Below, one piece after another: positions 5,741 to 28,834 of a stretch of 32,001 nt of DNA. Position 1 is the stretch's first letter. Every line of letters starts with the position of its first letter. The stretch is from Chryseobacterium gleum (GTDB lineage: Bacteria; Bacteroidota; Bacteroidia; Flavobacteriales_D; Sanyastnellaceae), in NCBI GenBank assembly GCA_945874695.1, contig CAMCHP010000034.1:1-32001 (forward strand), read 5' to 3'. The position numbers were made by a program, and so were the translations under genes. A model generated the notes under the pieces. That model was not told the origin of the DNA. It did not search any database and was given only the letters and a program-made list of their open reading frames with translations.

Positions 5741-6388
5741 TCAAGGATCAATAACGACCAAGCGCCGAACGAATGACAAACCGTTGGCCGTGGACGTGAC
5801 GTGAACGAGGTAGCATCCGGCCGGTAGGCCGAGATCATCAAAAGTAAAGGCATTGCCCACAAAATCGGTGGATGAAATCAATGCTCCGCTGAGGGCTGTA
5901 ATGCGCACCGTAAACGGGGTGCCGGGTAACGCATCGAGGCGAAGCTGGAGGCGCTGTGCCGTAGGATTTGGGAACAGGAGCAATTGATCAAAGATTGCGG
6001 TGAAAAATACGTCTACTTCACGGGTCGCTCCTTCCCCGCCGAGAAATAATCGGTACGTGTTGGTTCGGCCTTGCTCTGGAGCTAAATCGACCAAGGTGTA
6101 GAATTCAGTAAAATCGGTACCTCCGCAAACCTCGCGGATGGCCGCCACGACCTCATACTCACCACTGGATTGATTCAACCGTTGCAACTCAGCACCTAAG
6201 CACGACGCACCGCCGATGATGCCGAAATCAGCTCGAATGGTATTGCCGATTTGTTGCGCAGTAAAGCCCGCCAAAATGGCATCTCCAGCTTGCGCAAGCA
6301 CGCGGTCGGGAAGCATCGCCCCAACAAGCCCGAGGCAAACGACCCAAACTTTTACGCGCGTGAAAAAATGCTCGACCTCATACCTCAT
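5741..6388 (-). CDS. Small secreted protein with FN3-like region and T9SS sorting domain
   Basis: A 215-residue protein from the ATG at 6388. A signal peptide spans about residues 1-33 (hydrophobic VWVVCLGLVGAML, then LAQA). The mature part has the pattern common in T9SS cargo: GASCLGAEL, a core CGGTDF segment, and TNTYRLFLGG. The last 75 or so residues are a type A T9SS C-terminal domain: LLFPNPTAQRLQL near its start, GLPAGCYLVHV, and RRLVVIDP at the end. It is therefore predicted to cross the outer membrane and be anchored or released. An upstream ATG at 6412 would add 8 residues, but a TAnnTTTG box lies between the two starts (6393-6400), favouring 6388. Specific function unknown. Convergent with pepD and divergent from surE. 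Confidence 0.8.
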   Translation of the reverse strand: MRYEVEHFFTRVKVWVVCLGLVGAMLPDRVLAQAGDAILAGFTAQQIGNTIRADFGIIGGASCLGAELQRLNQSSGEYEVVAAIREVCGGTDFTEFYTLVDLAPEQGRTNTYRLFLGGEGATREVDVFFTAIFDQLLLFPNPTAQRLQLRLDALPGTPFTVRITALSGALISSTDFVGNAFTFDDLGLPAGCYLVHVTSTANGLSFVRRLVVIDP

Positions 6389-16933: not shown

Positions 16934-19525
16934 ATGCTGTATTCAAAGCTGAGCCGTCTGCCTTTTTTGGCATTTCTTGCATTTTTCGTGCTTTTCAGCG
17001 CATCACTTCGTGCGCAAATCAACCAAGGCGGGATGCCCCTCACCTACCAGAATGACAAGATGGATTGGCAAATGCCAACCCTCACCATGCCTGGCTTTGA
17101 TGTGAATGCCATGTTAGCAGAAGACGAGGTGATTCATGCATCCAAAGACACGCCTTACCGATTTGGGAAGAACTTCACGGTCGGACGAAATTTGAACAAT
17201 TCAGGGCAATGGCACGATCTGCCGAGTGGTGACCGGGTTTGGTTACTCCATATTTCATCACCAGGAGCGTACTCATTGAACCTTACTTTCGACTTGTTCG
17301 AGCTGCCTGTTGGTGGAAGGTTGTACGTTTATTCACCCGATTACACCCATGTGCTCGGTGCATACACCCACGCGAACAACAACCCTGAAATGGGATTTGG
17401 TACCTACCCTATCCCAGGCGATCAAATCATTGTTGAGTATTACGAGCCCGCTTACGCAGCAGGCACAAGTACGCTGCAGTTGGAGAATGTGACCCATGCT
17501 TACCGTGACTTGGACGTGGTTGCTCGCGGGATTGGCGATTCGGGTGCTTGCAACAACAATGTCATTTGTGCGGAAGGTGACGATTGGCGCGCAGAAATTA
17601 ACTCTGTGGCCATGATTGTTGTGAATGGAAACGGCATTTGTACTGGCGCCTTGATCAACAACACTGCCAACGACGGCCACCCCTATTTCTTGACTGCCAA
17701 CCATTGCTTGGGCGGGAGTGTTGCGAATTGGGTGTATCGCTTTAACTGGCAATCGACCACTTGTGTAGGAAACAATGTAGGCACCTATCAAACCGTGAGC
17801 GGTTCTCAACTTTTGGCCTCTGGAGGTGCCGCAGATTACGCGCTTTTGCGCATTAACAATGGCGATCCGATTCCTACGTCTTACGATCCGTACTATGCAG
17901 GATGGGACGCGACCGGTGTTAACCCTTCTTCCCAAGTGGCCATTCACCACCCCAGCGGTGACCTTAAAAAGATCTCGTTTGATGTGAACCCTGCTGGTAC
18001 TGCAACATATGGCGGTGCAACCTGCTGGCGCATTTTCAACTGGGAAGATGGAACCACTGAGCCAGGTTCATCCGGATCCCCACTCTTCGACCAAAACAAG
18101 CGGGTGATTGGTCAATTGTACGGTGGCCAAGCTACTTGCTCAAATAACGTAAACGACTACTACGGCAAATTTGATGTGACTTACCCGAACATTTGCCAAT
18201 GGATTGCCCCAGGTTGCAATACACTCATCGTCGACGGGTATGATCCCAATGCCGCAACCGTTGCAAATGACGCTCAACTTCTCAACATCGTGGAGCCACA
18301 AGGCACGTATTGCGCGACTTCTGTGACGCCGCAAATCACCGTGCGCAATGCCGGAACCGCAAACCTTACGTCGTTCACAATCCAATATACCGTTAACGGT
18401 GGAGCTTCGAGCAGTCAGAACTGGACGGGCAATTTGGCCAGTGGAGCTACCGTGGTAGTGAGCCTTCCAGCCATTACCCCAGGTGCGGGCAACTCAACCT
18501 ATGCGGTGACGCTAGTGAATCCGAACGGCACAGCCGATGAAAATCCTGCAAACAATGCAGGAAGTAGCGCCTTTACGATGATTCCTGACGGTCAATCTGT
18601 AAGCTTCAGCATTTTAACCGATAATTACCCTGGAGAAACCACTTGGAACATTACTGACGATACGAATACCATTATTTTGAGCGATGGCCCATACAGTGGC
18701 TCTCAAACGACTTACAATTATTCTTTCTGCCTATCGGCAGGATGCTACACTTTGAACGTGTTTGATAGCTTTGGCGATGGACTTCAATACCAAGGTGTGG
18801 TAGGTAACTACACCTTAACTGGACCAGATGGCAGTGTATTAGCCCAAATGATCGCGGGAGGTAACTTCGGATCATCGGTGACCCACCCATTCTGCATTAC
18901 CGCTGCGGGAATTGACGGTTGCACCGATGCGGGTGCTTGCAACTACAACGCTGACGCAACGAACGATGATGGCAGTTGCGAGTTCGCATCATGCGCAGGT
19001 TGCACCAACGCGGTAGCATGCAATTACGACGTCACAGCTACAATTGACAATGGAAGCTGCGAATTCGCATCATGCGCAGGTTGTACGAACACCGCAGCAT
19101 GCAATTACGATGCAACCGCTACAATTGACAATGGAAGCTGTGTATTGCCGACCCTATTCTATGCCGACAATGACGGTGATGGATTCGGAGCAGGTGCCCA
19201 AGTGCTTTTGTGCGCTCCGCAAGCTGGGTTCAGCACAAACAACCTCGATTGTGATGACAGCAATGCGAATGTTTACCCCGGTGCTCCAGGTACAGGTGAA
19301 GACATCGATAACAACTGTGACGGCGTGGTTGAAGGTGATGAATTAGCAGTTTGTTTGGGCGACTTCAACGGCGATGGTCAACGCAACATCGGTGATATGC
19401 TCTTCATATTAGGCGATATGGGGTGCACCTTGGGATGCGACGCTGATCTTGATGGTGACAACGTAACCAATGTAGCCGACTTCTTAATATTTGCTACTGT
19501 TTTCGGTACTTCTTGCAACGAATAA
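16934..19525 (+). CDS. Secreted trypsin-like (lysyl-endopeptidase-type) serine protease, multidomain
   Basis: An 863-residue exported protease. The signal peptide is residues 1-28 (FLAFLAFFVLFSASLRAQ). A propeptide-like region runs to about 190. The S1-type domain spans about 195-430 with triad H257 (LTANHCLGG), D301 (AADYALLRI) and S380 (EPGSSGSPLF), resembling Achromobacter lysyl endopeptidase; Lys specificity is not proven. Then come a CARDB-like domain (about 450-550), a beta domain with ETTWNITDD and FDSFGDGLQY, three Cys-rich GCTD repeats, a MopE-type segment (DNDGDGFGAG, CDDSNANVYPG, DIDNNCDG), and a C-terminal dockerin-like pair of calcium loops (DFNGDGQRNIGD from residue 810; DLDGDNVTNVAD). 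No standard T9SS C-terminal domain is recognisable. The C-terminal half is paralogous to that of the next gene, 72 bp downstream. Confidence 0.85.
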   Translation: MLYSKLSRLPFLAFLAFFVLFSASLRAQINQGGMPLTYQNDKMDWQMPTLTMPGFDVNAMLAEDEVIHASKDTPYRFGKNFTVGRNLNNSGQWHDLPSGDRVWLLHISSPGAYSLNLTFDLFELPVGGRLYVYSPDYTHVLGAYTHANNNPEMGFGTYPIPGDQIIVEYYEPAYAAGTSTLQLENVTHAYRDLDVVARGIGDSGACNNNVICAEGDDWRAEINSVAMIVVNGNGICTGALINNTANDGHPYFLTANHCLGGSVANWVYRFNWQSTTCVGNNVGTYQTVSGSQLLASGGAADYALLRINNGDPIPTSYDPYYAGWDATGVNPSSQVAIHHPSGDLKKISFDVNPAGTATYGGATCWRIFNWEDGTTEPGSSGSPLFDQNKRVIGQLYGGQATCSNNVNDYYGKFDVTYPNICQWIAPGCNTLIVDGYDPNAATVANDAQLLNIVEPQGTYCATSVTPQITVRNAGTANLTSFTIQYTVNGGASSSQNWTGNLASGATVVVSLPAITPGAGNSTYAVTLVNPNGTADENPANNAGSSAFTMIPDGQSVSFSILTDNYPGETTWNITDDTNTIILSDGPYSGSQTTYNYSFCLSAGCYTLNVFDSFGDGLQYQGVVGNYTLTGPDGSVLAQMIAGGNFGSSVTHPFCITAAGIDGCTDAGACNYNADATNDDGSCEFASCAGCTNAVACNYDVTATIDNGSCEFASCAGCTNTAACNYDATATIDNGSCVLPTLFYADNDGDGFGAGAQVLLCAPQAGFSTNNLDCDDSNANVYPGAPGTGEDIDNNCDGVVEGDELAVCLGDFNGDGQRNIGDMLFILGDMGCTLGCDADLDGDNVTNVADFLIFATVFGTSCNE
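18917..19141 (+). repeat. Coding tandem repeats: three GCTD/GSC units, 81-bp period
   Basis: Three units of the pattern GCTDxxACNYxxxATxDxGSC within the serine protease. Units 1-2 and 2-3 are separated by EFASCA linkers, giving an exact 81-bp (27-codon) spacing with near-identical DNA such as TTCGCATCATGCGCAGGTTG. They are Cys-rich and probably disulfide-bonded or metal-binding extracellular modules (inference). Confidence 0.8.
19361..19525 (+). other. C-terminal dockerin-like domain of the serine protease
   Basis: The last 54 residues hold two EF-hand-like loops, DFNGDGQRNIGD and DLDGDNVTNVAD, each with acidic or Asn residues at positions 1, 3, 5, 9 and 12. Each is followed by a hydrophobic helix, and Cys residues flank them (MGCTLGC, FGTSCNE at the end). 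The same layout and terminal FGTSCN close the next protein. Confidence 0.7.
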
Positions 19526-19597
19526 CCAAATAGCAATTCACACGTAAACAAGCGCTGGTAAACTCAGGTTACTAAACACAGACTGTTAACCAAGATT

Positions 19598-22500
19598 ATG
19601 AAAAGATTTGTATTACTGACCCTCGGCATCTTTGCCCTTTCAACGCTGTTGAGCGCCCAATCGTATTGGATTGATGAGGACCATCCGCAACGCACCGATC
19701 AACAAATTAATCCTGCTCGATACCGCAGCTTACGCTTAGACGTCAATGCGGTGCGCGGATTGTTTGCTGAAGCTCCGCTTGAAGCGGAGATTGGCGTGCG
19801 CAATTCTGGCTCAATCATTAGTGTTCCGATGCCCGATGGAAGCATGCAGTCGTTCCGATTCGTCGAGAGCCCAGTTATGATGCCTGAACTCCAAGCACAA
19901 TTTCCTGAAATTCGATGCTATACCGGCCAAGGGATCACAGACCCCAGTGCAACGATTAAATTTGATCTTACACCGAGAGGCTTCCACGGCATGATTATTC
20001 GCCCGAATGGAACGGTATACATCGATCCAGTTTCGCCGAGCGATACCGAGTATTACATGTCTTATTACAAAAAAGACTTTTACGCAACCACGGGTAAGAC
20101 CATGTTTGAGTTGCCACCGGTAATGCCCCAGGTAGAAGCTGACCGATATGATCAAATCATTGAAGACAAAGCTCCAAAGCCAGCCAAAGGAAAAGGCAAA
20201 CCTGGAATTATGGGCTTGAGCATGAAGACGCCTTCAGGTGCGCAACTGCGTACTTACCGACTTGCACTCGCCTGTACAGGAGAGTACGCGCAGTTTCACG
20301 GGGGAACAGTTGTTCTGGTGCTGGCGGCAATGAACACCTCAATGAACCGTGTGAATGGGGTCTATGAAGTTGAGAGCGCTATTCGCATGGTGCTTGTGCC
20401 TAACAACAACTTATTGGTTTTCCTCAACGGCGCTACCGACCCCTACACGAACAACGACGGCGGGGCCATGCTCAACCAAAACCAAACCACATGTGACAAC
20501 ACCATTGGGCTGGCTAACTACGACATCGGTCACGTTTTCTCCACTGGAGGCGGCGGCATTGCCCAATTGAACGCACCATGTGGCAGCGGACGTGCACGGG
20601 GTGTTACAGGCCTTGGTGCTCCGATCGGCGACCCGTTTGACATTGACTACGTTTGCCATGAAATGGGACACCAGTTTGGCGGTAATCACACCCAAAACAA
20701 CTCTTGTAACCGGGCCACCTCTGCGGCTTACGAGCCTGGAAGTGCGTCTACAATCATGGGTTACGCGGGCATTTGTCCGCCAAATCTTCAAAACAACAGC
20801 GACGATTATTTCCATAATCACAGCTACAATGAGATTTACAACTTCTCTGTAAACGGTAATGGCAATACATGTGCTGCAATCTCGAATACTGGAAATAACC
20901 CACCTACTGTAAATGCGGGTGCTGGTGGCTGGAACATTCCGATTTCTACACCATTTGAGCTCACTGCAACGGGATCTGACACCGACGGAGACGCGATAAC
21001 TTTCAACTGGGAACAATACAACCTGGGCCCCGCTACAGCTGCAGGTGACAACACGCTGACAAACCCTTCCGGAACCGCACCTATTTTCCGCTCGTGGCCC
21101 GCTACAGAAAGTCCGACGCGTGTTTTCCCGCGCTTGTCTGATTTGGTAAACAACACTACTACCATTGGCGAACACCTACCTACCTACTCGCGAGGCATGA
21201 CCTTTCGTTGTACGGTACGCGATAACCGTGCCGGTGGTGGCGGTGTAAATGACGCTCAGGTTTCATTCAACGTAACCGATCAAGCAGGCCCCTTCGTGGT
21301 TACAGCCCCAAACACTGCTGTTACATACCCTGGCAATAGCTTTCAAACAGTGACTTGGAATGTCGCTAATACCACCGCAGCGCCGGTTAGTGCAGCAAAC
21401 GTCGACATTTTCTTGTCGCTTGATGGTGGCTTCACCTACCCTATTACTTTGGTGAGTGGCACGCCAAATGACGGTAGTGAGTCGGTTTTGATTCCTGCTG
21501 GGCAAACAACCACAGCCCGTATCAAAGTAAAGGCGTCGAACAACATTTTCTTCGACATCTCGAATACGAATTTCACGATTGGTCCTGCAATAGCCAATGT
21601 AGATATTGACGCAGCTATTTTCGGTGTGAACAGTCCAACGGGTGACAACTGCACCAACAACTTTGTGCCCGAAATCGTCTTAGGAAACCTTGGTCAATTG
21701 AACCTGACATCGGCTACCATTCTCTACAACGTGAACGGTGGAGCAAATAGTAGCTTCAACTGGACTGGTAACCTCGCTACAGGCGCTTCGATCGCTGTAA
21801 CGCTACCTGGCATCACTACACCGAATGGCAACAACGTTTTCAACGTATCGGTCACAGACCCAAATGGCACCACCGATGAAAACCTGACAAACAACGCAGG
21901 TAGCTCAATTTTCACAGCTATTTCAGGTGGAAATACTTTGAGCTTCACACTAACCACTGACAATTATCCTGAAGAAACCACTTGGCAAATTCTAGATGAC
22001 AATGGTGTCGTGCTCTTTAGCGATGGCCCCTACGCTCAAACGCAAACCACCTTCAATTATTCATTCTGTGTTGGTGAAGGATGCTACACCTTGAATGTAT
22101 TTGACAGTTTTGGCGATGGTATGCAATTTCAAGGCGTAGTTGGTAACTACACCTTGACCGACCAAAACGGTATCGTTTTAGCGCAGATGGTTGCCGGTGG
22201 CAATTTTGGTTTGCAGGCAACGCATGAGTTTTGTGTTATTGTGGATGGCGTGCCGGGCTGTACTGACTTAGCGGCCTGCAATTACAACCCCGCTGCTGAA
22301 TTCAACGACGGTTCATGTGACTATTCATGTTATGGTTGTACGAATGCTGCGGCATGCAACTTCAATCCTGCTGCAACGATTGACAATGGAACCTGTATCT
22401 TCCCGAATGGATGTACAGACCCTGCGGCTTGCAACTACAACCCGAATGCTACCTGTGATGACGGCTCGTGCGACTTCAATGCGGTGGTATGGTACATCGA

Positions 22501-23665
22501 TCTCGATGGAGACAACTATGGCACCAACAATGTAGTCACTGGCCCACTCTGTCAAAGTCCGTGCGACAACACGTGGGTCGTTAACATCAACGGAACCGGC
22601 TGGCTCGACGAAACATCTTGGACCTTGCGTGATGCAAGTAACGTGATAGTTTTAAGTGGCGGCGGCTACCCGAATACGCAAAACGGGGGGAACTTTACGG
22701 TTTCCGCTTCTTCTGCCAACGGTCCTTTCACTTTTGCCATTGAAACACAAGGCCAGTTCAACGACAACGTGGCCAACTGGTCGGTGAGCACAGGTTCAGG
22801 CTTAACCCTTGCTTCGGGAACAATTACCGGCGGAAATACTGCTTCACAGGCAGGCATTACTTGTTCGTTTGCTCCTCAGGGCGGCGATTGCAACGACAGT
22901 AATCCTGCGATTAATCCTGGGGTAGCTGAAAGTCCATGCAACGATATCGACGACAATTGTGTTGGCGGAATCGACGAGAATGGTATTGACGGATGTACGA
23001 ATCCTGCGGCATGCAACTACAACGCTAATGCAACTTGCGAAAACGGTTCCTGCATTCTTCCTGATGGATGCACCAATCCCGCGGCTTGTAACTTCAACCC
23101 TGCGGCCTTGTGTGACAATGGCTCATGCGTACTCCCCGATGGATGCACTGATGCAGGTGCTTGCAACTACAACCCGGCAGCAGTTTGCGACAACGGATCA
23201 TGCGAGTTTTTATCGTGCAGCGGTTGTACAGACAGCAATGCATGTAATTTCGACCCGAGCGCAACCATCGATAACGGCACGTGTGTAACACCAACGGTAT
23301 ATTATGCCGACAACGACGGCGACGGATTTGGCGCAGGCGCTCCCGTGCTGCTTTGCGCGCCACAGGCGGGCTTCGTGGCCAATTCAACCGATTGCGATGA
23401 CAACAACAACCTCGTGTACCCCGGCGCACCTGGAACTGGCGAAGGCATCGATAACAACTGCGATGGAAACATCACAGGAGATGAAATCGCTGGTTGTTTC
23501 GGCGACTTCAACAACGACGGACAAATCAATATCGCAGATATGCTCTTCTTACTCGGTGATTACGGTTGTACAAGCAACTGTGTCGCAGATTTGAATGGAG
23601 ATGGTGTGGTCAACACCAACGATTCAATCCTCTTCCTTTCTGTTTTCGGCACATCGTGTAATTAA
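19598..23665 (+). CDS. Secreted zinc metalloprotease (reprolysin-like), giant multidomain
   Basis: A 1355-residue exported protease. The signal peptide ends at LLSAQ (about residue 21) and a prodomain runs to about 200. The metzincin domain has the zinc motif HEMGHQFGGNH (H354, H358, H364) with E355 as general base and a Met-turn at M387 (STIMGYAG), consistent with reprolysin-like M12B relatives. Downstream are a PKD-like region (PPTVNAGAG), an Ig-like segment, a CARDB-like domain and a beta domain with ETTWQILDD and FDSFGDGMQF. Then follow GCTD repeats in blocks of three and four, two MopE-type modules and a C-terminal dockerin-like domain ending FGTSCN. The first MopE module is split by an inserted domain (22551-22861). 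No canonical T9SS sorting domain is evident. It follows the serine protease by 72 bp and is closed by a strong terminator. Confidence 0.85.
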   Translation: MKRFVLLTLGIFALSTLLSAQSYWIDEDHPQRTDQQINPARYRSLRLDVNAVRGLFAEAPLEAEIGVRNSGSIISVPMPDGSMQSFRFVESPVMMPELQAQFPEIRCYTGQGITDPSATIKFDLTPRGFHGMIIRPNGTVYIDPVSPSDTEYYMSYYKKDFYATTGKTMFELPPVMPQVEADRYDQIIEDKAPKPAKGKGKPGIMGLSMKTPSGAQLRTYRLALACTGEYAQFHGGTVVLVLAAMNTSMNRVNGVYEVESAIRMVLVPNNNLLVFLNGATDPYTNNDGGAMLNQNQTTCDNTIGLANYDIGHVFSTGGGGIAQLNAPCGSGRARGVTGLGAPIGDPFDIDYVCHEMGHQFGGNHTQNNSCNRATSAAYEPGSASTIMGYAGICPPNLQNNSDDYFHNHSYNEIYNFSVNGNGNTCAAISNTGNNPPTVNAGAGGWNIPISTPFELTATGSDTDGDAITFNWEQYNLGPATAAGDNTLTNPSGTAPIFRSWPATESPTRVFPRLSDLVNNTTTIGEHLPTYSRGMTFRCTVRDNRAGGGGVNDAQVSFNVTDQAGPFVVTAPNTAVTYPGNSFQTVTWNVANTTAAPVSAANVDIFLSLDGGFTYPITLVSGTPNDGSESVLIPAGQTTTARIKVKASNNIFFDISNTNFTIGPAIANVDIDAAIFGVNSPTGDNCTNNFVPEIVLGNLGQLNLTSATILYNVNGGANSSFNWTGNLATGASIAVTLPGITTPNGNNVFNVSVTDPNGTTDENLTNNAGSSIFTAISGGNTLSFTLTTDNYPEETTWQILDDNGVVLFSDGPYAQTQTTFNYSFCVGEGCYTLNVFDSFGDGMQFQGVVGNYTLTDQNGIVLAQMVAGGNFGLQATHEFCVIVDGVPGCTDLAACNYNPAAEFNDGSCDYSCYGCTNAAACNFNPAATIDNGTCIFPNGCTDPAACNYNPNATCDDGSCDFNAVVWYIDLDGDNYGTNNVVTGPLCQSPCDNTWVVNINGTGWLDETSWTLRDASNVIVLSGGGYPNTQNGGNFTVSASSANGPFTFAIETQGQFNDNVANWSVSTGSGLTLASGTITGGNTASQAGITCSFAPQGGDCNDSNPAINPGVAESPCNDIDDNCVGGIDENGIDGCTNPAACNYNANATCENGSCILPDGCTNPAACNFNPAALCDNGSCVLPDGCTDAGACNYNPAAVCDNGSCEFLSCSGCTDSNACNFDPSATIDNGTCVTPTVYYADNDGDGFGAGAPVLLCAPQAGFVANSTDCDDNNNLVYPGAPGTGEGIDNNCDGNITGDEIAGCFGDFNNDGQINIADMLFLLGDYGCTSNCVADLNGDGVVNTNDSILFLSVFGTSCN
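22256..22471 (+). repeat. Coding repeats: GCTD block 1 of the metalloprotease (3 units)
   Basis: Three units: GCTDLAACNYN, GCTNAAACNFN and GCTDPAACNYN, each closing with DGSC or NGTC. Spacing is 23-26 residues. Related to the units in the serine protease and to the single unit in the gene at 27831. Confidence 0.8.
22551..22861 (+). other. Domain inserted within a MopE-type module
   Basis: The module begins WYIDLDGDNYGTNN, upstream of 22551, and resumes at GGDCNDSNPAINPG and CNDIDDNC after 22862. In ordinary copies, including the one later in this same protein, these halves are about 20 residues apart. Here about 100 residues intervene, containing DETSWTLRDASNVIVLSGG, which resembles EETTWQILDDNGVVLFSDG of the beta domain elsewhere in both proteases. 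Confidence 0.6.
22991..23284 (+). repeat. Coding repeats: GCTD block 2 of the metalloprotease (4 units)
   Basis: Four units: GCTNPAACNYN, GCTNPAACNFN, GCTDAGACNYN and GCTDSNACNFD, each ending in NGSC or NGTC, with linkers such as ILPD or EFLSCS. They sit directly after the split MopE module and before a second, intact MopE module. Confidence 0.8.
23504..23665 (+). other. C-terminal dockerin-like domain of the metalloprotease
   Basis: Two calcium-loop motifs, DFNNDGQINIAD (from residue 1303) and DLNGDGVVNTND, with hydrophobic helices MLFLLGDYG and ILFLSVFG and a terminal FGTSCN. It is a close relative of the tail of the preceding protease. Confidence 0.7.
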
Positions 23666-23744: not shown

Positions 23745-25247
23745 ATGCGTCGTATCGGAGTCATTGCTATATTCATTTGCAGTTTTCAACCTGCTTACAC
23801 CCAGGGCGCAATTGACGACCTCAACGCGGTCTTTGCCGATTTCAGCGTAATGGGCATGTCGGTCATCTCCTTGTGCGATGGCGAAATTGATGTAGAATAC
23901 CATGCCGGTTTGCGCGACTTCACCCGTCAACTTCCAGTGAACAGTGATACGCAGTACCGCATTGCATCGATCTCCAAGGCCATTACTGCAACGGGTTTGA
24001 TGCTGCTTGTTGATCAAGGCGCGGTTTCGCTCAACGCAGACATCAGCGATTACCTAGGTTTTGAGGCCCGAAATCCTCTCTTCCCCAACACCCCAATTAC
24101 CGTTGAAATGGTGCTTTCGCACCGTTCGGGGATCCAAGATGGAACCGGCTACAATGGCTTTCTCAATGCCACCAACAGTGCTGAAAACAACCTGCCGGCA
24201 TTGGCTGAGTTGTTGCTTTCTGATGGGGCCTACTTCACCTCAAACATTTGGCGTACTGAACCCCCTGGCACCTACTTCGCATACTCCAACCTTAATTATG
24301 GCGTGATTGCTACCATTATTGAAGCCGCGTCAAACCAGCGGTTCGATTTGTTTATGCAAAACAATGTGTTTGAGCCGCTCGGCTTAAATTGTTCTTACAA
24401 CACCTCCTTGCTCGATAACATTGATAACGTTGCGGTTATTTATCGTAACCAAGGAGGCTGGACACCCCAAGTCGACAATTTTCAAGGCAACACGCCAGAG
24501 CCTGCGAATATTCAAGACTATGTGCCCGGAGGCAACGGGTTGCGGTTTGCTCCCCAAGGCGGGTTACGCGCCAGTGCGCGTGATTTAGCGCGGCTCATGC
24601 AGCTGCATATCAACAATGGCTACGACAACCTTACGCAAACTCAGCTCATTTCATCGGAGTCGATTGAGCTCATGCACACGCCAGTTTGGACCTATAACGG
24701 CAGCAATGGTGATAATTACTTCAACCTCTTCAACAGCTGGGGCTTAGGGGTTCAAATAACCACCAACACCCCGATGGGTGACATCGTTTTCGACGGTTAC
24801 AACTTGATCGGTCATGCCGGTGAAGCCTACGGCTTGGTTAGTGATTGGTACTTTCATAAAGCTTCAGGCCGCGGCGTGATCTTCATGAATAATGGTGTTT
24901 TTTCTGGATACAGTTTTGGCACAAGCAGTGCTTTCTATACCATTGAAGAAGCTGTTTTTGATGCGCTTGAATCTGAATTCACAGCATGCACCACCGCGAT
25001 TAAAGCCTTTCGCGCAGCGAACGAACACAACATTTATCCGAACCCCGTTTGCAAAGGCGACACCTTAAGAACGACAATTGAACATGGTCAAACATCGATT
25101 TGGAATTTGCAGGGTACGTGCATTCAATCAAACGCTCCATTTGCACATGGCGAAATCGCACTTCCTGAACTTGATCCAGGTACCTACATCGTAAAACTCA
25201 TCAGTTCAGAAGGCGCACAAATTGAGCGTTTGGTAGTTTTGCAATGA
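23745..25247 (+). CDS. Serine hydrolase, class C beta-lactamase-like, with T9SS sorting domain
   Basis: A 500-residue exported protein from ATG 23745, with a signal peptide of about 20 residues ending AYTQ. An open frame continues upstream to 23595, but that part overlaps the metalloprotease gene and lies before the terminator. Motifs of the beta-lactamase/penicillin-binding-protein fold: S75-x-x-K78 in IASISKAIT, Y180-S-N182 in FAYSNLNYG, and H357-A-G in GHAGEAYG replacing KTG, as in esterases and D-aminopeptidases of this family. Residues about 425-500 form a type A T9SS domain (NIYPNPVCKGD; GTYIVKLISSEG; IERLVVLQ). It is an extracellular or surface peptidase or esterase more likely than a true beta-lactamase. 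The stop precedes the SDR start by 56 bp. Confidence 0.88.
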   Translation: MRRIGVIAIFICSFQPAYTQGAIDDLNAVFADFSVMGMSVISLCDGEIDVEYHAGLRDFTRQLPVNSDTQYRIASISKAITATGLMLLVDQGAVSLNADISDYLGFEARNPLFPNTPITVEMVLSHRSGIQDGTGYNGFLNATNSAENNLPALAELLLSDGAYFTSNIWRTEPPGTYFAYSNLNYGVIATIIEAASNQRFDLFMQNNVFEPLGLNCSYNTSLLDNIDNVAVIYRNQGGWTPQVDNFQGNTPEPANIQDYVPGGNGLRFAPQGGLRASARDLARLMQLHINNGYDNLTQTQLISSESIELMHTPVWTYNGSNGDNYFNLFNSWGLGVQITTNTPMGDIVFDGYNLIGHAGEAYGLVSDWYFHKASGRGVIFMNNGVFSGYSFGTSSAFYTIEEAVFDALESEFTACTTAIKAFRAANEHNIYPNPVCKGDTLRTTIEHGQTSIWNLQGTCIQSNAPFAHGEIALPELDPGTYIVKLISSEGAQIERLVVLQ

Positions 25248-27830: not shown

Positions 27831-28823
27831 TTAGCGGGTCACTACAATTTGTGAAGACGAGCTAAAGGTTGAAGTACGTGTGCTCACAGTGTAGGTTCCT
27901 GCCGCCAGAGCCTGCTTGATGACAATGCGGTTACCACCTACAATGGCTTCATTTCCGAACTCTGAACCGTAGACTTTCTTTCCTGCACCGTCGAAGATTT
28001 CTACGATGAGCATCTCGTTTACCAACTCGATGCGGTCAGCGAATTGCAAGTTGAATTGACCTTCCCAGATTGGGTTAGGGAAAATCAACACACCATCAAG
28101 TTTCCCTACAGTGGCAGAGCCATTGTTTGTTTGATTCGGTTGTGGTGTAACCGCAGGTGTTTCAGGTAGCATGCAGCTTCCGTCGTCGTATGTTGCGTCA
28201 ACGTTGAAGTTTGTTGCGCCTTGTTGCATGCACCCGAAGATGTGAGCTTCAGAGGTGGTGAAGGTCAAACCGCGTTCTTGCCATGGCATACCTTCTTGAT
28301 CCCAACCCTGAAAGTTGAGCGTACCTGTAGCCGTTCCTGTAGTTGTTAACTGCATCAACAATATTTTTGATGTTGCATCAGGCAATGTGCGCACATCTGT
28401 AGGTACGAGGAACCAAGCCCCATTGTCAGCTGAAATGCTTCCACCGTTTTCGAAATCACCGAATTCAATGCCAATGGTCCAAAGGTTGTTCGCCACTGCA
28501 TTTTCAGCACCAATGGTTACCCATGTATCAAAAGCGAGTGCTGGATCGAGGTTTACCACATTCGGATTGACATCAATCGAAGAATACCCCCCAAGCGGGT
28601 GCTGGTAGAAAGCTCCTGTTGACTCAACGGCAAGGAAATCACCCCCTTCACCAAAAATCGCATGGATAGAGTGTTGTGGCTGCGTAAGCACAGCGTATAC
28701 ACGGTAGGTATTGCCCGAAACAACGCCACCATTGTCGACTTTCTCGACAACCAATTCAACGTTGCTCGCAAATGAAAAAGACGCTCCAAGGAGAAGGAAC
28801 ATCGCTGTAAATATAGATTTCAT
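27831..28823 (-). CDS. Secreted T9SS cargo protein with a single GC/DDGSC repeat
   Basis: A 330-residue protein with a signal peptide at residues 1-20 (FTAMFLLLGASFSFAS). The N-terminal 190 or so residues form an unrecognised beta-rich domain (NTYRVYAVLTQPQ; DTWVTIGAEN; WDQEGMPWQERG). A single unit GCMQQGATNFNVDATYDDGSC follows, related to the repeats of the two proteases. A Pro/Asn/Thr linker then leads to a type A T9SS domain (VLIFPNPIWEGQFNLQF; AAGTYTVSTRT; SSQIVVTR). The start is ATG 28823; a TTG two codons upstream lies in the -7 box. The -7 box TAACTTTG ends only 3 nt before the ATG. It is probably displayed on the cell surface; function unknown. Confidence 0.85.
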   Translation of the reverse strand: MKSIFTAMFLLLGASFSFASNVELVVEKVDNGGVVSGNTYRVYAVLTQPQHSIHAIFGEGGDFLAVESTGAFYQHPLGGYSSIDVNPNVVNLDPALAFDTWVTIGAENAVANNLWTIGIEFGDFENGGSISADNGAWFLVPTDVRTLPDATSKILLMQLTTTGTATGTLNFQGWDQEGMPWQERGLTFTTSEAHIFGCMQQGATNFNVDATYDDGSCMLPETPAVTPQPNQTNNGSATVGKLDGVLIFPNPIWEGQFNLQFADRIELVNEMLIVEIFDGAGKKVYGSEFGNEAIVGGNRIVIKQALAAGTYTVSTRTSTFSSSSQIVVTR

Positions 28824-28826
28824 GAT

Positions 28827-28834
28827 CAAAGTTA
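28827..28834 (-). promoter_or_regulatory. -7 box (TAACTTTG) directly before the T9SS cargo gene
   Basis: A perfect TAnnTTTG on the minus strand with three bases (ATC) between it and ATG 28823. Predicts a leaderless transcript. No properly spaced -33 TTG was seen. Confidence 0.45.

Follow-up and report, generated by a model that had tools for sequence, protein, structure and literature searches.

Introduction

Signals read by the type IX secretion system (T9SS) are C-terminal domains, which the accessible part of a 2023 review sorts into types A, B and C with no mention of dockerins (PMC10202324). Dockerins of types I and II (Pfam Dockerin_1; solved structure 2y3n_B) are cellulosomal. For freshwater Planctomycetes, the accessible text of another paper proposes a ‘planctosome’, in which M14 peptidases and M12B reprolysin-like ones are tethered to the outer membrane through cohesin-dockerin contacts (PMC6461901); among the papers found, this is the closest published idea. 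NCBIfam holds a further dockerin family, NF041540 (‘GC-type dockerin domain-anchored protein’). Sorting tags can also vary on a single protease body: NCBI models rhombosortase-dependent (NF038111) and myxosortase-dependent (NF038112) M36 proteases. These tags are processed by sortase-like proteases. Here we examine the C-terminal tail shared by two adjacent secreted proteases, the open reading frames ORF1 and ORF2, in a 32,001-nucleotide stretch of Bacteroidota DNA (hereafter the window) that is contig CAMCHP010000034.1 (C34) in its entirety. The genome, 3.09 Mb long and assembled in 128 contigs (GCA_945874695.1; Flavobacteriales_D), is that of an uncultured member of the family Sanyastnellaceae. 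The tail stands in place of the T9SS domain on homologous protein bodies, and we lean towards reading it as a C-terminal surface tag.

As a domain, the tail is already known through NF041540. That model spans the entire two-loop form, ORF2 passes it and the tails of Planctomycetota are likewise C-terminal, but the ORF1 tail lies far under the cut-off, 22 of 34 tails in this genome have one loop and exchange with T9SS domains is absent from the model’s printed description. Cellulosomal dockerins share the tail’s predicted fold and its loop pattern; the tail differs from them in repeats closed by cysteine pairs, a position that is, as a rule, strictly C-terminal, the existence of one-loop forms and the lack of a recognisable cohesin in the genome. 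The T9SS type A domain (TIGR04183 / PF18962) resembles it in position, in kind of cargo and in the bodies that carry it, yet has another fold and no sequence match. Dockerin-bearing M12B reprolysin-like peptidases outside cellulose degradation link the tail to the planctosome, although cohesin partners are reported in the accessible text on that system (PMC6461901), whereas none is recognisable here. The M36 proteases offer a parallel in which one body bears different C-terminal sorting tags by lineage, but the dockerin tail has no known processing enzyme. Among papers available without subscription, a literature search found none on GC-type dockerins, none joining dockerins, Flavobacteriales and sorting, and none on a dockerin tail replacing a T9SS domain. 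Within the reach of these searches, neither the one-loop form nor an exchange with T9SS domains inside a single genome has been described.

Results

The tail occupies positions 19352..19522 (+) in ORF1 (profile match 19352-19519, plus one residue before the stop) and 23495..23662 (+) in ORF2, where it forms the final 56 residues. When the last 100 residues were scanned, the ORF2 tail scored 31.6 bits against NF041540, above the cut-off of 29, and the ORF1 tail failed at only 11.7 bits (E 0.27); its kinship to the ORF2 tail is nevertheless clear because the two are 66% identical. Searched at full length, ORF1 and ORF2 gave zero NCBIfam matches at E<=1, T9SS models included. Pfam Dockerin_1 stays below its gathering score of 22.9 in both (14.2 bits in ORF2; no match at E<=0.1 in ORF1). 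Of the 34 terminal tails in the genome, 25 match NF041540 at E<=0.1, a count taken at that threshold and not at the model’s cut-off. To judge from sequence, the tail belongs to, or borders on, the NF041540 family.

A profile of 16 tails from this genome has its best matches in solved dockerins (2y3n_B, E 3.1e-13). The AlphaFold model of the tail (10 sequences; pLDDT 95.1, pTM 0.77) superimposes on 2y3n_B with Z 10.0 and an rmsd of 1.2 over 55 residues at 42% identity (Foldseek TM 0.87), and the upper rows among the matches listed in the structural comparison are dockerins only. The tail is predicted to have a dockerin fold with tandem F-hand loops and two helices. The term ‘dockerin-like’, under which an earlier note described it, holds in a strong sense given the profile match to 2y3n_B and the predicted fold. 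Cysteines C1, C25, C29 and C55 are invariant in an alignment of ten two-loop tails, outside which two further two-loop tails stand (loci C15:37030 and C8:46544). One disulphide per repeat (Cys1-Cys25 / Cys29-Cys55) is likely because each repeat starts and finishes with a cysteine. The invariant cysteines, together with 41 occurrences of the tail in the genome, place it beyond chance.

Those 41 places match the tail profile at E<=0.001 (44 rows in total, three weaker). The tail is terminal in 34, ending 0-8 residues from the stop; six copies are internal and one runs into a contig end. Among the terminal tails, those with one loop (22) outnumber those with two (12). At the same threshold, the genome has 100 type A (TIGR04183) and 44 type B (TIGR04131) T9SS matches. 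Comparisons were made with 98 of the 100 type A proteins (two regions, and the type B proteins, were left out). The loop motif occurs in 27 of the 34 tail proteins and in 0/98 type A proteins, and no protein falls in both the tail and the type A sets. Across the last 100 residues, none of the 34 tails matches the NCBIfam T9SS models TIGR04183, TIGR04131 and NF033708 at E<=0.1. The earlier note had set the tail apart from recognisable T9SS domains and suggested looking for it on other exported proteins, and both expectations are borne out: among the 28 tail proteins whose N-terminus is closed, 27 are signal-peptide-like under a home-made rule by which 85 of the 98 type A proteins qualify too. 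The set includes M36 fungalysin, subtilase, endonuclease I, esterase-like, lectin-type and adhesin-like proteins, and the end motif FGTxC is common to such unrelated bodies. The idea that the tail is an over-diverged T9SS domain was rejected on the dockerin fold predicted at pLDDT 95 and the lack of any T9SS model match.

Homologous bodies in this genome carry either the tail or a type A domain. The clearest case is a tandem, same-strand pair, C11:22100 (tail) and C11:19199 (type A), whose bodies are 61% identical (529/864). Homology stops at residue 866 in the former, where the dockerin tail begins at 868, and at residue 873 in the latter, where the type A domain begins at 882. These paralogs (about 19196-24868 on C11; L168 and L039) are FG-GAP / UnbV_ASPIC proteins. 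The window itself contributes another case, since ORF1 and the trypsin-like protein C30:29251, which carries a type A domain, are identical at 307/716 positions. Ends are also exchanged in the adjacent pair C67:9444 / C67:6564 (483/780 identical) and in the pairs C41:12358 / C47:10218 and C1:7863 / C2:80393. With Cys-rich GCT repeats masked, 17 of the 34 tail proteins share a body of at least 150 aa (E<=1e-10) with one of the 98 type A proteins. The M36 protease C13:13948 scores 887.9 bits, against a cut-off of 885, with the NCBI equivalog model ‘T9SS-dependent M36 family metallopeptidase’; the match covers positions 3-776 of 869, and for the remainder, the C-terminal domain, the protein has the tail instead. 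The rhombosortase- and myxosortase-dependent models make this a body known to accept the local sorting tag. The tail thus takes the place of the T9SS domain on homologous bodies.

The same exchange can be followed across genomes in the reprolysin family. With ORF2 as query, 78 loci were fetched and 83 C-termini with a stop were scanned. At E<=0.01, TIGR04183 matches 62 of these ends and NF041540 matches 12. On a tree of the bodies, the type of end (type A or dockerin) switches at least three times, once for the window’s Flavobacteriales group and also for two groups labelled Planctomycetota; the tree was built by a quick method, with several deep branches weak and tail states labelled by hand. 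The 62 hand-labelled type A rows equal in number the 62 TIGR04183 matches, four of the 83 open reading frames that could not be aligned to the protease body are omitted and 13 rows that run off a contig end are unlabelled.

Other ends occur on these proteases. Two Saprospiraceae-titled homologs (L112 and L126) have neither a T9SS domain nor a dockerin; L112 ends in NF045639 (GCX_COOH, ‘3-coathanger stack domain’), which has two members among the 83 ends and represents another C-terminal exchange in the family. A Chitinophagales-titled homolog (L114) ends in a different dockerin-like loop pair with no NF041540 match.

The tail is found throughout the window’s family, with a match at E<=1e-4 in at least 111 of 114 genomes and in 21/21 genera. 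Copy number is at least 20 in 79 of these genomes and 0-2 in 16, the latter confined to two genera. TIGR04183 is present in 114/114 family genomes, and SprA in 110/114, including all 50 genomes whose completeness is 90% or more and whose contamination is 5% or less. Because both persist, the tail is an addition to T9SS and not its replacement; genome-wide replacement was rejected on the T9SS domains kept in all family genomes. In a phylum-wide Bacteroidota sample, at least 15 of 395 genomes match at E<=1e-4. Strong matches come from the present genome and one family member, and the remaining 13 genomes have one match each, so lateral spread across Bacteroidota was also rejected. The tail is abundant in some Planctomycetota. 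At E<=0.001, NF041540 has 120, 14, 54 and 56 matches in the genomes of L115, L142, L148 and L151, titled Phycisphaerae, Planctomycetota, Planctomycetota and Phycisphaerales; a search for SprA in these four found no match. All eight loci examined in genomes G507, G509 and G510 end in the tail, seven with the terminal cysteine. Eight other genomes with reprolysin homologs (G515-G522) have no NF041540 match.

A cohesin that might receive the tail was sought with PF00963. The best score in the window’s genome is 12 bits (E 0.39; cut-off 24.1), although such a search would overlook a diverged cohesin. Among 39 genomes picked for tail content, five match at E<=0.1 (G408, G421, G436, G508 and G513) and four exceed the cut-off; G436 and G513 have identical coordinates and are the same genome. 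No cohesin match was found in G507, G509 and G510, which have 120, 54 and 56 tails. In the family genome G436, a protein read from an open frame of 668 residues (L267; contig C45, about 55,000-57,000) combines a clear cohesin domain (51.6 bits) with the tail at its own C-terminus. It is secreted, has more cohesin-like repeats by eye and is a possible adaptor; it recalls adaptor scaffoldins and is the sole such lead. As a general receptor it was rejected because no relative was found among the proteins examined: its eight phmmer matches above the inclusion line are tail proteins, and both printed alignments run through the tail.

The remainder of the two proteases agrees with the architecture that the earlier note had described, in which unrelated catalytic parts precede a common C-terminal block; open reading frames, Pfam matches and pairwise alignment all confirm it. 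ORF1 (16934..19525, +; 863 aa) is a trypsin-like secreted protease with a Trypsin_2 domain (E 2.8e-11) at aa 236-393 (17639..18112, +); His, Asp and Ser are visible in the protein sequence. Its N-terminus (16934..17014, +; …SLRA|Q) is signal-peptide-like by the home-made rule, with an inferred cleavage site. CARDB (aa 451-542; 18284..18559, +) and a Cu-binding_MopE motif (aa 772-799; 19247..19330, +) complete its Pfam matches. ORF2 (19598..23665, +; 1355 aa) is an M12B reprolysin-like secreted metalloprotease whose N-terminus (19598..19657, +; …LLSA|Q) passes the same rule, again with the cleavage site inferred. Pfam places four Reprolysin models on it, led by Reprolysin_4 (E 2.3e-28; aa 218-420, 20249..20857, +, containing HEMGHQFGGNH), and two MopE stretches, the better at aa 1097-1127 (22886..22978, +); Dockerin_1 reaches only E 0.05. 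The catalytic parts have no significant match in pairwise alignment. Beyond them, the blocks follow one order in both proteins: a CARDB-like stretch comes first, then an FDSFGDG-containing domain, the GCT repeats, the MopE motifs and lastly the dockerin-like tail. The CARDB, FDSFGDG and GCT block of ORF1 (aa 438-752; 18245..19189, +) aligns at 57% (181/316) with aa 663-975 of ORF2 (21584..22522, +), so that the stretch homologous to CARDB is present in ORF2 even though Pfam scores that domain only in ORF1. The GCT, MopE and tail region aligns at 48% (171/355, gapped).

Three other window proteins have ordinary type A T9SS domains matching TIGR04183, again in agreement with the earlier note. 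They lie at 5753..5977 (-), at 25032..25238 (+) in the next gene downstream of ORF2 and at 27840..28085 (-). The last of these proteins (27831-28829, -) matches C4:72011, a tail protein, at 36% across 155 aa, which makes another end-exchanged pair. The GCT repeats (GCTDxxACNYxPxAxxDDGSC), for which no Pfam name was seen, occur in 31 of 42 tail-hit proteins in the genome and in 12 of 98 type A proteins. The internal tail copies are half-dockerins amid such repeats in six paralogs, at three places on C50 and one each on C22, C80 and C120.

Discussion

We consider it somewhat probable that the tail is a cysteine-stapled GC-type dockerin that serves as a C-terminal surface sorting or anchoring tag and replaces the T9SS domain on a large subset of exported proteins. 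The tail is terminal, modular, present on unrelated exported bodies and swapped with a sorting domain at the junction, all of which argues for a sorting tag. Observed are the dockerin fold in the predicted structure, the C-terminal position, the genome-wide use and the exchange on homologous bodies. After Sec export, the tail would fold in the periplasm with calcium in its loops and one disulphide closing each repeat. The folded tail may then dock on a shared receptor, not a recognisable cohesin, that would keep or position the protein at the outer surface. Passage across the outer membrane through T9SS, with the receptor as a go-between, is a guess by elimination. Because Bacteroidota are not known to move large Sec proteins across the outer membrane in any other way, T9SS is the probable gate. 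The earlier note had offered a calcium-dependent anchor, a cohesin partner or an alternative sorting signal; the T9SS swaps favour a sorting or anchoring tag, and the cohesin option finds no recognisable cohesin in the genome.

Several observations weigh against this reading. The module is not always terminal, as six complete paralogs with an internal copy, assigned to Fib_succ_major on a domain checked in one of the six, demonstrate. Two of the 34 tails (C15:37030 and C8:46544) have no last cysteine, and many of the 17 body matches between tail and type A proteins span one shared domain only. The tag can be dispensed with, given the 16 family genomes that have 0-2 copies. The tails examined in G507, a Planctomycetota genome, have loops (DLAAPAGTLDIAD) in which few calcium ligands are left and most are gone, so calcium need not be central.

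T9SS might instead read the tail directly, as a further class beside A, B and C that binds the shuttle and may be cleaved or kept. The tail does occupy the exact type A position on homologous bodies, and SprA is nearly universal in the family and present in all of its good genomes. Type A, however, is an Ig-like beta sandwich according to the accessible part of the review (PMC10202324), and the tail is predicted to be a two-helix dockerin. Moreover, four tail-bearing Planctomycetota genomes have no SprA match, from which it follows that the tail works, and can be a C-terminal tag, somewhere without T9SS; nor does NF041540 occur in the eight other genomes with reprolysin homologs. We regard direct reading as unlikely. 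A passive role, in which the tail merely closes or stabilises the C-terminus of large repeat-rich exports and its exchange with T9SS domains is a by-product, seems less likely again. It would suit the very small one-loop form (22 of 34), which follows Cys-rich GCT repeats in many proteins, the frequency of that repeat in tail-hit proteins (31/42, against 12/98 in type A proteins) and the occurrence of internal copies. It sits badly with an exchange that is recurrent and junction-precise, with the near-strict terminal position (34 of 41 places) and with a specific end motif, FGTxC, on unrelated bodies.

A classical cohesin-dockerin scaffold, similar to the planctosome, would have tail enzymes dock on the cohesins of a protein tethered at the outer membrane. 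The nearest solved structures are dockerins from cohesin complexes, and the accessible text on freshwater Planctomycetes hypothesises such contacts for M12B reprolysin-like peptidases (PMC6461901). L267, with its cohesin and terminal tail in one family genome, points the same way. Against it stand the 12-bit best score in the window’s genome, the rarity of cohesin matches among the tail-chosen genomes (5/39, four over the cut-off, two of them the same genome) and the lack of any in G507, G509 and G510, although a diverged cohesin would escape the search. We judge this scaffold very improbable. Returning to a surface tag with a receptor that is not a recognisable cohesin, a bolder form of the proposal is possible, if tentative: an undescribed sorting or anchoring pathway with its own receptor, shared by Planctomycetota and one Flavobacteriales family, to which, in the latter, dozens of proteins once carried as T9SS cargo would have passed and for which a 28-residue half-dockerin with one disulphide would suffice.

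Implications

The existence of NF041540, the greater frequency of the one-loop form and the abundance of the tail in Planctomycetota without SprA extend what the earlier note contained. Predictions of the surface proteome in T9SS bacteria rely on C-terminal domains of types A, B and C. If a dockerin tag serves this purpose as well, each genome of the family holds dozens of exported proteins that such predictions miss. The tandem pair on C11 is a clean natural experiment on what a C-terminal sorting tag requires. GC-type dockerins, a family named by NCBI, would gain a role that can be tested by finding the receptor.

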